DNA of 20,827 bases from a virus. The stretch spans positions 1-20,827 of IMG/VR virus record IMGVR_UViG_3300021961_000773; one strand, 5' to 3'. A program made the position numbers and the translations under genes. Shown here piece after piece: positions 1 through 20,827 of this stretch (its first letter is position 1; every line of letters begins with the position of its first letter). The notes beneath the pieces are model-generated. The model made no database searches. It saw nothing but the letters and a program-made list of their open reading frames with translations, and had not been told where the DNA came from.

Positions 1-263
1 AACCCTACCGTCTCGGCCAACTGGGTCGCGGTCCCGAACTGGCCCGGGGTTCCAAGGTTGGAAATGCCCCGCATGGCCTGAGTTTCATAGGGACTGAACT
101 GAGCCAGCCTCTGACCCGGGAACGCCTCATAAGGACGCGCACTCTCGTACACGCCCCTCTGGAGCAGATGCTCGTAATACGGCTGTGCGTATTCGGGCAA
201 GTTAGTGGTTGTAGTGGTTACCTCTTGGGCACCACCGCCGCCTCCGCCGCCTCCGCAACACAT
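1..263 (-). CDS. Start of a virion protein beginning Met-Cys-Cys-Gly8, cut by left edge
   Basis: From the ATG at 263 the minus strand stays open to base 1 (87 codons and two bases). It reads MCCGGGGGGGGAQEVTTTTT, then NLPEYAQPYYEHLLQRGVYE, SARPYEAFPGQRLAQFSPYE and TQAMRGISNLGTPGQFGTAT. The Gly-run opening followed by LPEYAQPYYExLL and RLAQFSPxExQAM is a pattern I recall at the N-terminus of long virion proteins in environmental phages. The full length is unknown because the 3' end is outside the window. It starts three bases after the GNAT stop, with no Shine-Dalgarno. Two cysteines at positions 2-3 are odd for a cytoplasmic virion protein. Confidence 0.75.
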   Translation of the reverse strand, partial: MCCGGGGGGGGAQEVTTTTTNLPEYAQPYYEHLLQRGVYESARPYEAFPGQRLAQFSPYETQAMRGISNLGTPGQFGTATQLAETVG

Positions 264-17247: not shown

Positions 17248-17595
17248 TTAAACGATAATTATAGTAACTGACCCTATTTCTCCAGACCCAACTAAATTAT
17301 TCTGGGTCAGGCCAAAATCCCCGGCCATTCCTACAGGGCTCCATCCCCATTGGATGTCCCTGCTCTGACTCACATTCTTCTCTGGCCTTGGATCAAAAAT
17401 GGCCTGAGGGTCATTGACCGGGTACTTGCCAAGGTCGTCCTGCGGGTTTTCTGGTTCCCAGCATTCTGAACACACCTTGATATCTACCGTCTGGCCGTTG
17501 ACCTCCAGTTTCTTCAGTTCTTTCAACTTGTACTTAAAGCCGCACCTATCGCATTCGGCTATTGCGTGTTTGCCAGATGCAAAAGCAGACGACAT
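17248..17595 (-). CDS. Zinc-ribbon-containing phage structural-region protein
   Basis: A 115-residue protein with a four-cysteine metal site: C15-x2-C18 and C42-x2-C45, within AECDRCGFKYKLKELKKL and VCSECWEPENP. The spacing fits a zinc ribbon. The remainder has a KYPVNDPQAIFDPRP segment and a hydrophobic C-terminus (GSVTIIIV). I remember homologous small proteins in phage neck clusters, always without assigned function. The position between two adaptor-like genes suggests a neck or tail-associated role, or a late regulator; the sequence does not decide. The start is fixed by a TAATG overlap, and the stop lies in a GTTTAAAC octamer just before the next ATG. Confidence 0.7.
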   Translation of the reverse strand: MSSAFASGKHAIAECDRCGFKYKLKELKKLEVNGQTVDIKVCSECWEPENPQDDLGKYPVNDPQAIFDPRPEKNVSQSRDIQWGWSPVGMAGDFGLTQNNLVGSGEIGSVTIIIV

Positions 17596-18311
17596 TAGAT
17601 TTGGGCCTTAGGAACAAACCTAACCGTTGCTTTTTCACGATCCTCATCTGATGCCCTTTGCCATTCTTCGTCATAGATCGCCTTCAGCATCACAGGACGG
17701 TTTGGATCTACATCTGGAAGTTTAAGCGACAAATAATAGGCAAGCCCAGCCACAAGACAGGGCAGGAACCTGAAAGGGATGTCCTGACCACTAATTCCGG
17801 TTCCCTGATCCTGAATACGCCTCAGACGCCAGTAGACGAGCGTGTAGGGCTGAGAGTCGTCCGGGACAGGCCAGACAGTCACCTGAGGATACTGAGTTAC
17901 ACCGGAACTGTTATTGGCTCCAGATAGGCGTTTAACCACAATCTGTATAGGCAGTCCCGTCACATTCTTGTTTGGAATGGTGGCGTAGACACTGTTAGAT
18001 ATACGGTTGATAGTCGTATCTGCCTGATTGATCCCAGAGTTCGTCCTGATCACATGGTCAAGGAGATCCACTGTGTCAGCAGGAAGATTGTAGGTTGCCG
18101 TTCCAGAGACCAATGAGATCGATCCCTCTGAAATGGTCCACAGGTTGATGCCCCGATTCGCCCATTCTAGGAGCATCAGGTTCAGGGACCGGGTAGCGGT
18201 CCTGAAATCGTACCCGGTCCTTAGCTCCCGACCACAACGCTCAAAGGCTTCCTCAATGACTTCATTGAGGTCGAGGTTGAAGTTAGTGGTATCTGTGGTG
18301 TTGTAGGCCAT
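17595..18311 (-). CDS. Virion neck / head-tail adaptor-like protein
   Basis: A 238-residue protein opening with a helical segment (LDLNEVIEEAFERCGRELRT, then ATRSLNLMLLEWANRGINLW). A beta-rich core follows (SLVSGTATYNLPADTVDLLD; VTVWPVPDDSQPYTLVYWRL), and the C-terminus is helical (PCLVAGLAYYLSLKL, then EEWQRASDEDREKA). A helix bundle with an inserted beta sheet, and the 'TYNLPxDxxxLL ... WPxPD ... LxYW' succession, resemble adaptor proteins of the P22 gp4/T7 gp11 type. The same pattern recurs in the SU10-type adaptor four genes' distance downstream. The exact family is uncertain. It would bind below the portal and help close the packaged head. The ATG is nine bases past the preceding stop, and the stop overlaps the next start as TAATG. 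Confidence 0.6.
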   Translation of the reverse strand: MAYNTTDTTNFNLDLNEVIEEAFERCGRELRTGYDFRTATRSLNLMLLEWANRGINLWTISEGSISLVSGTATYNLPADTVDLLDHVIRTNSGINQADTTINRISNSVYATIPNKNVTGLPIQIVVKRLSGANNSSGVTQYPQVTVWPVPDDSQPYTLVYWRLRRIQDQGTGISGQDIPFRFLPCLVAGLAYYLSLKLPDVDPNRPVMLKAIYDEEWQRASDEDREKATVRFVPKAQI

Positions 18312-18320
18312 TACTTCTTC

Positions 18321-18566
18321 TTACTTACCCGCTTGGCGATAGCGGCGCGTTTTTTGAGCGATACCCTTGGGCTGGGGGACAAACTGCTTACCTTGCGCTT
18401 TGCCTTTGCGCTTGGCGGCGGTGGTTCGGGCATACTCGGAGGGGCTGAGAGCCTTGATCGCAGCCTCTGGAAGATACCTTTCACCTGTGTCAGTAGACCG
18501 TTTACCACTTTTCGTTCTCCATTTCTGAGCGGTCCATGCTTTCAAGGACTTTTGCGGGGCTTTCAA
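18321..18566 (-). CDS. Small basic phage protein with LKAWTAQKWRTKSGK motif (TTG start)
   Basis: Eighty-one residues. The N-terminal LKAWTAQKWRTKSGK is followed by TGERYLPEAAIKALSPSEYA and a basic tail containing GKQFVPQPKGIAQKTRRYR. The same order of elements occurs in a widespread small phage family of unknown function that I remember. No ATG is available near the N-terminus. The frame starts at a TTG (18566) whose last two bases begin the upstream stop (TTGA overlap), and GGAGG lies nine bases before it, so TTG initiation is well supported. With its neighbours it makes a run of four small, basic or low-complexity proteins. Confidence 0.75.
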   Translation of the reverse strand: MKAPQKSLKAWTAQKWRTKSGKRSTDTGERYLPEAAIKALSPSEYARTTAAKRKGKAQGKQFVPQPKGIAQKTRRYRQAGK

Positions 18567-18748
18567 TCGCGGTAACCTCCGCCCTTGGCCTTATATTGCT
18601 TTGCAAGAAGCTGGGCCTTTCTCGCGCTCCATTTTCCTGCCGCAGTGCCTTGGACGTTCTGACCCTTAATCTTGTTGAACAGTGCTTTACGCATACTGGG
18701 CTTGGTGTAGTTCCCGGCAGCGTTGACCTTGCTCTTAGCCTTCGCCAT
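18563..18748 (-). CDS. Small basic phage protein with GKWSARKAQLLAKQYKAKGG motif
   Basis: Sixty-one residues, strongly basic. The C-terminal half carries GKWSARKAQLLAKQYKAKGG, which I recognise as a recurring segment in small proteins of marine phages (annotated as a domain of unknown function). The N-terminus reads MAKAKSKVNAAGNYTKPSMR. The frame could be extended two codons to a TTG at 18754, but the ATG at 18748 forms TGATG with the upstream stop, as at many junctions here, so I use it. The function is unknown. The basic, helix-forming C-terminus suggests nucleic-acid contact, which is inference only. Confidence 0.75.
   Translation of the reverse strand: MAKAKSKVNAAGNYTKPSMRKALFNKIKGQNVQGTAAGKWSARKAQLLAKQYKAKGGGYRD
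18576..18580 (-). promoter_or_regulatory. Shine-Dalgarno GGAGG for the TTG-started gene
   Basis: On the minus strand GGAGG sits nine bases before the TTG at 18566, inside the 3' end of the preceding gene. It is the main evidence for the non-ATG start of the 81-residue protein. Confidence 0.6.
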
Positions 18749-18966
18749 CAGCAACGCTTCCCTTTCTTGGTCATTCCGCCAGACTTCATACCCTTCTTCT
18801 TTAGGTCCTCAGTAATTCGCATGAGGGGTTCGGTCACGCCCTTGGTGACGGGATGCATCTGGGAGGCCGCACGGGCAGCATTCATGGACTCAGCGGCCAG
18901 TTTCTCGTTCTCGAAAGCCTCCTTAGAGGCGTTCCGGGAACCAATAGGGTTCTGATTGGCTGGCAT
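18748..18966 (-). CDS. Small phage hypothetical protein ending in GGMTKKGKRC
   Basis: Seventy-two residues. The first half is mixed helical (ASKEAFENEKLAAESMNAAR) and the C-terminus is basic (LKKKGMKSGGMTKKGKRC). Its GGMTK tail repeats the GGMTKS element near the end of the protein encoded just upstream, and a 15-base identical DNA stretch underlies both. I do not recognise a functional family. Start and stop are both fixed by 1-base overlaps with its neighbours (TAATG in, TGATG out), which strongly supports it as a real gene. Confidence 0.7.
   Translation of the reverse strand: MPANQNPIGSRNASKEAFENEKLAAESMNAARAASQMHPVTKGVTEPLMRITEDLKKKGMKSGGMTKKGKRC
18766..18780. repeat. 15-base direct repeat, copy 1
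   Basis: CTTGGTCATTCCGCC occurs here and again at 19020-19034, on the plus strand in both cases. On the minus strand both encode GGMTK, in two adjacent genes and in the same phase. Confidence 0.7.
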
Positions 18967-19913
18967 TACACCATCCTCCCGCGAGTCTTGCCGCGAGTGG
19001 CGCAGCCATCCATACGGCTCTTGGTCATTCCGCCCTTAGCCGTTCCAGTCTTGCCGCCTTTTTTAAAGTCAATTTGAACCGGGGGAGGGGTGATTGGCTT
19101 ATAGTCCTCCCCGTCAACTTTCAAACCATAGCCACCTGAGCCGCCAGCAGGAGGAAGAGTTTCGACCTGAGGCATGGCGGGGGGCGTCTCAGGGGTGATT
19201 TCAGCCGGACCACCGGGGGTTCTGATAGGCATTCTGGAAGCCATCAAGTCCCTAGCCCTCTGAGAAGCCTGAGCGGGAAGGGTGGGAACCCGGCGCATAT
19301 CCATTCCACGGCCCTTGTTTTGGCGAGCAGCCAACGCCGCAGCGGCCCTAGGGTTTGCTTTAGAGGGAAGAGTGGGAGGGGTGGATCCCCTCAATGTCAC
19401 CTTGGTGGAATCGTTGGAATCGTATCCAGCAGGGATAGGGGTAGGGGTGCTTCCCGCGCTGCCCGTATCAGCAGGGGAACCCGGAATAATGGGCGGAGAA
19501 TAAGACGGAACTGGAGGAACGCCTTTGATTGAATTAGGCATTGAGGACATTCCCCCAAATGCCATTTTCTTGGTCTTCCCACCGGCACTCATCTTGGGAT
19601 TCTGGTTGGTTCCCAAGTTATACAAGGCACCAGCCTTTCTAGGATTCGGATCTTTGGTGGAACCGCCCCCCAACATTCCGCGAGCGCCCGCAAAACGCTC
19701 CATAGCGGAAGCAGCCTTGGAGGACGCCTGCGAGGGCAGGGACGGCTTGGAGGGCATCTTGCCCCCCTTCATGTAACGCTTCATATCGGTCTCCTTGTCT
19801 TCTTTAACGAACTCTTTGCCAACGGAGACCGGTACGCCGACCTTCTTGGCAAACTCTGGGTTATGTGCCACGGCTTGCATAAATCTTTCCTGCTTGTTGC
19901 TATTGCTAGGCAT
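18966..19913 (-). CDS. Low-complexity Pro/Gly/Lys-rich phage protein with KGG motifs
   Basis: A 315-residue protein. The N-terminus is an ordered basic segment: SNKQERFMQAVAHNPEFAKK, then VGVPVSVGKEFVKED. This opening recurs in marine phage proteins that I remember but cannot name functionally. The remainder is disordered: proline-rich stretches (GVPPVPSYSPPIIPGSPADT), repeated LPSQAS/LPSKAN/LPAQAS units, and several KGG or GG-M-T-K elements (YMKGGKMP, KKMAFGGMS, KKGGKTGTAKGGMTKS). There is no transmembrane segment and no catalytic motif. It starts by TGATG coupling to the gene upstream and ends by TAATG coupling to the next. The composition would suit an internal head or DNA-associated protein, or a flexible scaffold, but nothing here proves it. 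Confidence 0.75.
   Translation of the reverse strand: MPSNSNKQERFMQAVAHNPEFAKKVGVPVSVGKEFVKEDKETDMKRYMKGGKMPSKPSLPSQASSKAASAMERFAGARGMLGGGSTKDPNPRKAGALYNLGTNQNPKMSAGGKTKKMAFGGMSSMPNSIKGVPPVPSYSPPIIPGSPADTGSAGSTPTPIPAGYDSNDSTKVTLRGSTPPTLPSKANPRAAAALAARQNKGRGMDMRRVPTLPAQASQRARDLMASRMPIRTPGGPAEITPETPPAMPQVETLPPAGGSGGYGLKVDGEDYKPITPPPVQIDFKKGGKTGTAKGGMTKSRMDGCATRGKTRGRMV
19020..19034. repeat. 15-base direct repeat, copy 2
   Basis: Second copy of CTTGGTCATTCCGCC, within the C-terminal coding part of the 315-residue protein, 254 bases from copy 1. Confidence 0.7.
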
Positions 19914-20152
19914 CAGTCTTTGTCATCATTAAGACGGTCAATCTTCTGTTCCAGCCTGTCAAACCTATCAAGCAACTGCTTCATATCGTGTCTAAACTCG
20001 CTCCTAGTAATATGATCCCTAGCAACTTCCTCTCTAGTCTTGTTTAACAAGACCCCAAGGCGCTGTAATTCTGCGAACTTATCTTTCATAAAAAAACCAA
20101 GAATAGACACTATTCCGGTCAAGATCATGTTCCAGATTACCATCTCCATCAT
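19913..20152 (-). CDS. Small membrane-anchored coiled-coil protein
   Basis: About 79 residues. The N-terminus has one hydrophobic segment (VIWNMILTGIVSILGFFM, about residues 5-22). The rest is highly charged and heptad-like (FRHDMKQLLDRFDRLEQKID), so a single transmembrane helix followed by a cytoplasmic or periplasmic coiled coil is likely. A longer frame opens at a TTG at 20155, but ATG codons at 20152 and 20149 sit 4 and 7 bases after AAGGA, so I start at 20152. The stop overlaps the next ATG as TGATG. Similar small proteins occur in many phage structural clusters without a proven role. A holin-accessory or spanin role is possible, but the real lysis cassette is elsewhere in the window, so I leave the function open. 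Confidence 0.75.
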   Translation of the reverse strand: MMEMVIWNMILTGIVSILGFFMKDKFAELQRLGVLLNKTREEVARDHITRSEFRHDMKQLLDRFDRLEQKIDRLNDDKD

Positions 20153-20161
20153 CAATTCCTT

Positions 20162-20440
20162 TTAGCAGTCCCATGCCCTAAGTGACTTATTGATCCTGCT
20201 ATTAGGATCTTTTGCGGTCTTGGCGGAAGTAAGCCGCTTCTTCATACCGGTCATCCTCGCACAGAATGACTTACGCCTAGCCGCAGACTTGGGGGACTTG
20301 GCTGCTTCGGCCCTTTTAACCGGAGCCTTGAGACCCGGCTTGCCGGGATTAGAACGGTTATAGGACGTACGACCTGCGGCGTTTAGACCGCCTTCCGGGT
20401 TCTTGCCTTCTTTGCGAGTCCAAGCCTGAGTCTTAGGCAT
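20162..20440 (-). CDS. Small basic phage protein (DUF6321-like)
   Basis: A 92-residue lysine- and arginine-rich protein. The order of elements is a KEGKNPEGGLNAAGRTSYNR segment (residues about 10-29), a basic proline-containing linker, RRKSFCARMTGMKKRLTSAK, and a C-terminal LRAWDC. This pattern matches, from memory, the small phage family DUF6321, whose function is not established. The ATG at 20440 has GGAG six bases upstream and overlaps the preceding stop by 8 bases. Strong positive charge could mean nucleic-acid or capsid-interior binding, but that is inference. Its place just upstream of the neck genes suggests it is made late, with the virion proteins. Confidence 0.75.
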   Translation of the reverse strand: MPKTQAWTRKEGKNPEGGLNAAGRTSYNRSNPGKPGLKAPVKRAEAAKSPKSAARRKSFCARMTGMKKRLTSAKTAKDPNSRINKSLRAWDC

Positions 20441-20827
20441 TGATATCTCCAGTAATGATTTTCAATCCAAGCCTGTCAAAAGCTACGAACGGTTCCTGCG
20501 TGGTCACATCGCAGTTGGCGAACAGATCATCTATCTGCGCCTGAGTAACGGACATACCCGCCTCAATGCACATATTATACAATGCAACGGGGTCACCCGG
20601 AATATCATCAATCAAGTCCCAAGTATCCAGTTCACTGTCGTATTCCCAGACTTGTTCAGGCATCAAAGCTGCAAACTCGGTACTGATGTATCCCGTCGAG
20701 ATACAGTGCGTGGCTGGTTCGTTGCCGTCTGCCGACAGCCCGGTGATCCACATTCCTGCGCCGTGGACGGGTGACAGCGACTCAGCGATCTGCCGTGCAA
20801 GCGGTGCCTCGGCAGCGGTGACAATCA
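20433..20827 (-). CDS. Conserved phage hypothetical protein, 5' end cut by window edge
   Basis: The reading frame is open to the right edge. It adds 24 codons (IVTAAEAPLARQIAESLS... reading into HGAGMW) before the internal ATG at 20753. The two bases left at the edge are TG, so a single missing A would make ATG the start; the gene is probably complete except for that base, giving about 132 residues. The upstream residues look like real coding sequence and resemble the N-terminus of a recurrent phage hypothetical family that I recall beginning MIVTAAEAPLA. The C-terminal part is acidic (the DSELDTWDLIDDIPGD stretch) and ends FDRLGLKIITGDINA. The function is unknown to me. It overlaps the next gene by 8 bases, so it heads the small-gene cluster seen here. 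The coding call is firm; the role is not. Confidence 0.8.
   Translation of the reverse strand, partial: IVTAAEAPLARQIAESLSPVHGAGMWITGLSADGNEPATHCISTGYISTEFAALMPEQVWEYDSELDTWDLIDDIPGDPVALYNMCIEAGMSVTQAQIDDLFANCDVTTQEPFVAFDRLGLKIITGDINA

Follow-up and report, generated by a model that had tools for sequence, protein, structure and literature searches.

The internal proteins of bacteriophage T4 are small and basic, occur in about 300 copies each, and are diverse but for a conserved capsid-targeting sequence (CTS), of which 10 residues suffice and in which residues 4 and 7 are key for targeting, as stated in the available portions of PMC9026906 and PMC3012670; residues 8 and 10 serve processing, according to the available portion of PMC9026906. 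In this study, a block of small genes was analysed in IMG/VR virus record IMGVR_UViG_3300021961_000773, positions 1 to 20,827, a 20.8 kb virus record with its late genes on the minus strand; this whole stretch is referred to below as the window. At the window end, the genes follow each other 5' to 3' as a cut acidic open reading frame (ORF), D92 (a DUF6321 protein), H80, S315, P72, W63, T81, and the neck adaptor gene (Table 1). On balance, the block appears to be an island of genes for internal head proteins that bear sorting signals and function as the T4 internal proteins do, but through signals unrelated to theirs. The phages that carry the cluster are a group from water, most of them uncultured.

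The strongest sign of a system, which was absent from the initial annotation of this stretch, is the structure of constant modules and a constant C-terminal tag. S315 is the sole tagged ORF of the window. The definition proposed here for a tagged protein is a match with 0-2 mismatches to the pattern [DE]G[ICV]A.[KR]GK[TS][KR] near the C-terminus, which S315 has. Block loci were those in which DUF6321 and the adaptor share a strand and are at most 5 kb apart, which gave 121 loci. The tag ends 231 ORFs in 101 of these 121 related loci, lying at most 40 residues from the stop in 229 of the 231, and none of 9256 ORFs matched in a shuffled control. It was found in 132 of 247 cluster representatives, 92 of which carry it on at least two ORFs. 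In loci with an adaptor, all 265 tagged ORFs are on the adaptor strand; their start lies at most 4 kb before the adaptor in 260, farther upstream in 2, and after the adaptor in 3, and the flank beyond the adaptor covers 2-3 kb in 122 loci and 4-5 kb in 74. The number of tag mismatches is bimodal, namely, 0-2 in 276 of 1005 ORFs and 3 in only 2, with the remainder resembling shuffled sequences; at 0-2 mismatches, the controls gave 3 matches in the rest of the ORF and 0 in shuffled ORFs. Since D, G, A, and GKT are set by the pattern itself, the 100% columns and some of the 77% identity of the tag arise by construction, whereas the mismatch count is free of this effect. When 5-mers at the C-termini of block ORFs were counted free of the motif, GKTKG was the one present in the largest number of loci (103/121).

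The proteins that carry the tag are varied: 280 tagged bodies fall into 123 single-linkage families, including MOD proteins (56; see below) and DUF6321 proteins (7). The statement that the bodies differ rests on these 123 families, and this number can be raised by frames that are short or spurious. Within a genome, identical tag residues are encoded by different codons in 975 of 1972 cases (0.49), vs. a background of 4174 of 6895 (0.61). Because the codons of identical tag residues differ, it is the protein rather than the DNA of the tag that is conserved; as the codon figure is a little below background, some tags may be recent copies.

The association with the adaptor was also seen when the tag was the only query. 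A DNA-pattern scan of IMG/VR yielded at least 63 contigs that do not overlap the earlier loci, of which 33 were usable (at least 3.5 kb downstream) and 30 were dropped; the adaptor was near the tag in 31 of the 33, together with T81 in 19, W63 in 19, MOD in 19, and DUF6321 in 17. In cellular genomes, the pattern occurred in 5 contigs, whose titles point to metagenome bins or uncultured isolates; 3 of these contigs are phage sequence because block or neck genes are present. The tag also ends a frame of 656 aa (L578 165-2132) in a contig that was binned as Patulibacter, and the searched block and neck families were absent from the 8 kb covered there. Among isolates, no match was obtained at E 1, for a query so short that its core alone could hardly reach that value, and at E 10 three records of 65,014 bases were returned. 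The Planktothrix phage Pag-Yong1 contains a 308-aa ORF near its adaptor (record positions 51312-52238; L471 7770-8696) that ends in the tag with one mismatch. A literature search on the tag strings returned only papers that are unrelated by title, and none on a common C-terminal tag in capsids.

The Walker A pattern is GxxxxGK[ST]. By letters, the tag core G-[ICV]-A-x-[KR]-G-K-T fits it (291 tags in relatives), although its position at the very C-terminus leaves no room for a P-loop fold after it. The likeness may be due to chance or may reflect a phosphate-binding element, and in the latter case the tag could be in contact with DNA or with a nucleotide at the portal.

At its other end, S315 carries a constant element that is common to jumbo phages. 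Residues 1-44 match phrog_16759 (1.1e-20), which corresponds to a 39-aa module at the protein start (MOD), and the first 50 residues match 107 phage records; among the matches listed, 39 of 40 exceed 200 kb. PHIKZ165.1 (L287 6001-6177) is a free-standing 58-aa copy of MOD in phiKZ, for which no role was found; three genes separate it from the gene for internal head protein 163. MOD is also fused to other members of the block, namely, to W63 in one contig (L107) and to DUF6321 in two (L274 and L577). The S315-type bodies are less conserved than MOD, with 2586 of 4278 pairs being detectable by blastp as compared to 4221 of 4278 for MOD, and many of them have common K/G/M-rich stretches.

W63 and T81 form a pair. 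In 50,697 phage records searched by tblastn, W63 was present in 10 and T81 in 17, with SAR11, SAR116, and Roseobacter-clade hosts and, for T81, also Methylophilales. W63 lies in the same locus in 182 of 189 T81 clusters (W63 first in 135, T81 first in 28, fused in 19), and 25 ORFs are W63-T81 fusions. Since they form one protein in 19 of the 182 contig clusters, W63 and T81 probably act together.

DUF6321 occurs in more of these phage records. D92 matches PF19846 at 79.5 bits (cut-off 28.5) over profile positions 1-72 of 72, and the same tblastn search placed the family in 473 phage records, 455 of which are named Synechococcus phage, Prochlorococcus phage, or cyanophage. Nothing follows the domain in 307 of 345 uncut ORFs. 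It is the C-terminal part of a 443-495 aa protein in S-SM1, Syn9, and S-CREM2 and of a 165 aa protein in S-SZBM1; in these four T4-like cyanophages, the gene is near terS and neck genes, and in S-CREM2 and S-SZBM1, the two with both terminase genes in view, it sits between these. An internal and a C-terminal Cys are kept or lost jointly: both occur in 287 distinct domains and neither in 9 (6 with Leu, 3 with Ala), where 2 cut rows were left out and the 1 discordant row (L087) ends in RWNC beyond the aligned part, so has both. A natural reading would be a disulphide that forms in the released particle. DUF6321 domains with neither Cys carry C-terminal extensions. No role was found for the family, and the literature search returned no paper naming DUF6321.

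DUF6321 and T81 are predicted by AlphaFold2 to have compact folds (pTM 0.72, with five helices, and 0.75, respectively; pLDDT in Table 1), which would be unlike a simple protamine-like condenser. The DUF6321 model had no PDB match up to E 10 in Foldseek, and the best VIA match had Z 2.4 over 41-43 residues; the best PDB match of the T81 model had E 5.2 (Foldseek), with none at Z 2, and a T4-like 'virion protein' in BFVD matched it weakly (E 2.1). Sequence comparison gave no useful PDB match either, the best being 7pkt_J for DUF6321 (E 0.27). The lack of a PDB match for DUF6321 and T81 is no proof of a new fold. A 'SLRDWF' segment is fused to DUF6321 in 79 of 90 matches, and T81 was considered as its homologue owing to a resemblance by eye; this stays suggestive, as hhalign gave a probability of 3.6-4.9% and an equally high score was reached by 4 of 300 column-shuffled profiles.

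The block is also set apart from the rest of the window by charge, to a degree beyond chance. The net charge per 100 aa is +22.2 for both T81 and W63, +20.7 for D92, +9.7 for P72, and +8.3 for S315, and all other scored window genes lie between -13.8 and +2.4; the isoelectric points (pI) of these five proteins are 10.0-11.3. The initial annotation had described seven consecutive small genes with overlaps and mostly positive charge. The run of short ORFs (92, 80, 315, 72, 61/63, and 81 aa and a cut one of at least 130 aa) was confirmed, and so were overlaps of 1-8 nt, except that the 92- and 80-aa genes are separated by a gap of 6 nt; positive charge holds for five of the seven proteins and fails for the 80-aa protein (pI 6.1) and the 130-aa fragment (pI 4.05). 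The three motifs that it quoted proved to be real families, namely, DUF6321/PF19846 (E 2.9e-22), phrog_17747 (1.4e-29), and phrog_14910 (2.1e-35).

Table 1. Positions in the window of the block genes, their terminal elements, and the adjoining genes.
Feature	Description	Position	Strand	Basis
D92	DUF6321 protein, 92 aa, pI 11.3	20162..20440	-	PF19846 match; AlphaFold2 pLDDT 89.9
H80	80 aa, not basic (pI 6.1), transmembrane-like start and coiled coil by eye	19913..20155	-	ORF, charge
S315	N-terminal module, low-complexity basic body and C-terminal tag, 315 aa	18966..19913	-	phrog_16759 match; tag
MOD	39-aa N-terminal module of S315, common to jumbo phages	19797..19913	-	sequence searches
C-terminal tag	DGCATRGKTRGRMV of S315	18969..19010	-	tag pattern
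P72	72 aa, basic orphan, C-terminus GGMTKKGKRC	18748..18966	-	charge; peptide patterns
W63	63 aa, WSARKAQ family (61 aa if ATG at 18748)	18563..18754	-	phrog_17747; alignment
T81	81 aa, TTG start, SLKAW..QKWRTKSGK family	18321..18566	-	phrog_14910; AlphaFold2 pLDDT 90.7
Head-tail adaptor	SU10_adaptor, landmark adjoining the block	17595..18311	-	PF24175, 42.5 bits vs. gathering score 27
Cut acidic ORF	at the window edge, at least 130 aa, pI 4.05	20433..20825	-	ORF, charge

H80 was seen in 49 of the 121 related blocks. No relative of P72 was found, no viral contig matching its peptide patterns, and its tail type, GGMTKKGKRC, was also found in relatives. The cut acidic ORF is probably not part of the system; it had no relative among 287 sequences. 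The two matches obtained for each of these ORFs must be the window itself and L001, which is a copy of it. Next after the adaptor, the gene at 17248-17595 gave only weak zinc-ribbon matches (best E 0.076) and has 187 relatives among the collected loci. An ORF at the left edge (window 3-263) has a match at E 5.4e-6 to a PHROG with the name DNA ejection protein.

The block families recur in environmental viruses and in a recognisable arrangement. Scans of IMG/VR returned at least 600 stretches for W63, at least 599 for T81, and at least 600 for DUF6321, of which 590, 597, and 597, respectively, were confirmed; since each scan gave roughly 600 stretches or more, all three families are common in environmental viruses, yet none of them could be linked to a role. 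From each collection scan the best 80 loci were kept, so that the counts describe close relatives. The usual order in relatives is DUF6321 - (H80) - (S315) - W63 - T81 - adaptor. In a set collected with the adaptor alone (80 loci, 71 clusters), 32 clusters cover at least 4 kb upstream, where T81 was found in 22, W63 in 23, DUF6321 in 25, all three in 18, and none of the families in 3; across all collected loci (82 clusters), which were partly chosen by block proteins, the numbers are 65 for T81, 66 for W63, and 73 for DUF6321. In phage DSL-LC04 and in contig L225, the block genes have the major capsid gene on one side and the adaptor on the other. In 25 of the 121 block loci (e.g., L149 2073-2813), the interval from 1.5 kb before DUF6321 to the adaptor encodes a protein of about 247 aa that by eye resembles a glycosyltransferase, and a 245-aa neighbour in L225 matches phrog_1574 and, weakly, a glycosyltransferase PHROG.

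In each of six distant isolates, W63 and T81 are at most 2 kb apart. DUF6321 is about 1.5 kb or less from W63/T81 in HTVC033P, HTVC034P, and MEP401 and 17 kb off in HTVC103P; it gave a sub-threshold match only in HMO-2011 and was not found in CRP-13. The proposal that these genes are conserved as a block beside head-completion genes thus stands for the related contigs, with all three families in 18 of the 32 adaptor-anchored clusters, and in part breaks down in distant isolates, e.g., in MEP401, where the cluster lies directly before terL and about 7 kb from the adaptor. Scattered positions, named at the outset as a finding that would speak against the proposal, were not encountered within the group and were encountered in part across distant groups. 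The initial interpretation is partly supported. A common job of the proteins is supported by synteny, by the fusions, and by the tag that different neighbouring proteins have in common.

A location in the head is supported indirectly, i.e., by the gene position between capsid and neck, by virion proteins of other phages, and by the starts of some DUF6321 proteins. Presence in virions was shown for one DUF6321 and one MOD protein, both from other phages. S-CREM2 ORF137, which ends in DUF6321 (by position match), is listed with 4 peptides and 4.1% coverage in the available part of the virion table of PMC10665884. CBB_322, which begins with MOD, ranks first by peptide number among the 55 virion proteins listed in the available part of PMC5259590, with 30 unique peptides at 43.57% coverage. 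The MOD protein RaK2 ORF156 is not named in the available part of the RaK2 virion text. As to the starts, S-SZBM1_192 begins with MKTFKQYITE, and T4 ipIII and ipII begin with MKTYQEFIAE. In contigs collected with two DUF6321 proteins of cyanophages as queries, a T4-IPIII-like start occurs on 10 of 134 DUF6321 ORFs vs. 9 of 2112 further ORFs with a length of 80 aa or more, and these 9 belong to a single family. In loci biased by a query having that start, the counts are 6 of 68 vs. 6 of 1214, in the other loci 4 of 66 vs. 3 of 898, and among comparison ORFs of at least 150 aa 0 of 628. It is because of these T4-like starts and of S-CREM2 ORF137 in virions that the block is read as internal head proteins. 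In nine contigs (L310, L314, L324, L326, L338, L344, L437, L438, L452), a 106-119 aa frame has an IPIII-like start of the form MKS[FY]..[FY][LI]SE, and in 8 of the 9 it directly follows the DUF6321 ORF.

Several observations weigh against a location inside the head or against a role of the tag in it. The S-CREM2 peptides are not mapped to a domain and need not fall in DUF6321, and MOD makes up only 39 of the 847 residues of CBB_322. S-SZBM1_192, a DUF6321 protein with a targeting-like start, is missing from the S-SZBM1 virion table of 30 proteins, and the DUF6321 protein of S-SM1 is recorded as hypothetical, while other genes there are called structural. No virion proteomics of a phage that has T81, W63, or the tag came up in a literature search. 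The modules can also lie apart from neck genes in distant phages. Moreover, the tag is not essential to the island, because DSL-LC04 has the same layout without it.

Four other explanations were weighed. The tag and modules might dock on the outside of the capsid or on the neck, like cement or head-fibre proteins; the virion presence of relatives would fit this equally well, and the genes come directly after capsid and cement genes and before the adaptor, but the strong positive charge and the T4-type internal targeting starts on some DUF6321 proteins point inwards, so that such an outer decoration is considered unlikely. If charge is taken as the leading feature, the basic proteins and their basic tag may simply bind DNA in the head, which was the main idea of the initial annotation, with the tag as a DNA-binding tail that is rich in Lys/Arg and fits the phosphate-binding GxxxxGKT by letters. 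Against this, the tag keeps exact residues beyond its charge, and DUF6321 and T81, with conserved Trp and Cys, are predicted to be compact; little probability is therefore given to mere condensation of DNA.

The products may instead not enter the particle at all, being late-operon proteins that remain in the cell and act there on the host or in assembly; the tag would then mark a place in the infected cell. The absence of S-SZBM1_192 from virions is in line with this, and the 123 families of tagged bodies resemble fast-changing accessory or counter-defence genes; S-CREM2 ORF137 and CBB_322 in virions and the confinement of the tag to the capsid-neck interval argue the other way, and we regard this explanation as improbable too. 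It is far less credible that the repeated tag is mainly common DNA for recombination or body swaps between neighbouring genes, lacking a protein function: several tags per genome on many different bodies would be expected of such a cassette, but half of the identical tag residues differ in codon, near background, and the tag is C-terminal in all but 2 of the 231 ORFs.

The favoured explanation, an island of internal head proteins, would work as follows. A set of small basic proteins would be made, presumably late in infection, from the genes between the capsid and neck genes, in which fixed folded modules (DUF6321, W63, and T81) stand beside fast-changing bodies with a constant MOD and/or a constant tag. 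The constant ends, MOD or tag, would dock on one component of the assembling head, e.g., the scaffold, the portal, or the inner capsid face, and the varied cargoes would be packed in this phage together with the DNA, contacting it and balancing its charge; they may exit with the DNA at infection. A more specific version, put forward tentatively and held to be less probable than the island itself, is that the C-terminal tag (approximately RADG[ICV]A.[KR]GKT[KR]G[KR][MF]V-COOH) is a sorting code that loads changing small proteins into heads, with DUF6321, W63, and T81 as fixed packing partners; as part of the same tentative proposal, this code would be independent of the N-terminal targeting sequence of T4 both in sequence and in the protein end that it occupies. 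If the tag is a head-loading signal, many unidentified proteins would at once be named as packaged, perhaps injected factors, a second and independent example of what T4 does with its CTS would be at hand, and a short tag could become available for loading proteins into phage heads in the laboratory. Pag-Yong1, an isolated phage with the tag, makes the question directly testable.

In DSL-LC04, the capsid-neck region consists of portal, GroES, capsid, cement, DUF6321, H80, a weak W63 relative (14.6 bits), and adaptor. Pag-Yong1 has its tag-ended ORF near the adaptor as in the window, but its DUF6321 lies 5 kb beyond the adaptor, unlike here. D92 is a member of DUF6321 (PF19846; phrog_727, phrog_3477, phrog_4689), free-standing here and a C-terminal domain in T4-like cyanophages. 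S315 has the 39-aa MOD in common with phrog_16759 (PHIKZ165.1), phrog_25121, and phrog_22033 (jumbo-phage virion structural proteins), whereas its body differs and ends in the tag. As no block protein of the window starts with a T4-type CTS, the block is by membership not a T4-type internal protein set; by analogy, it may nevertheless work by a mechanism like that of the T4 internal proteins. Like IPI, IPII, and IPIII with their CTS, it has several small basic proteins per phage with diverse bodies and one conserved terminal signal, and some DUF6321 proteins of other contigs have a CTS-like start; unlike in T4, the terminal signal is either a DGxAxRGKTRGxxV tag at the C-terminus or an N-terminal module of 39 aa, neither of which resembles the CTS.

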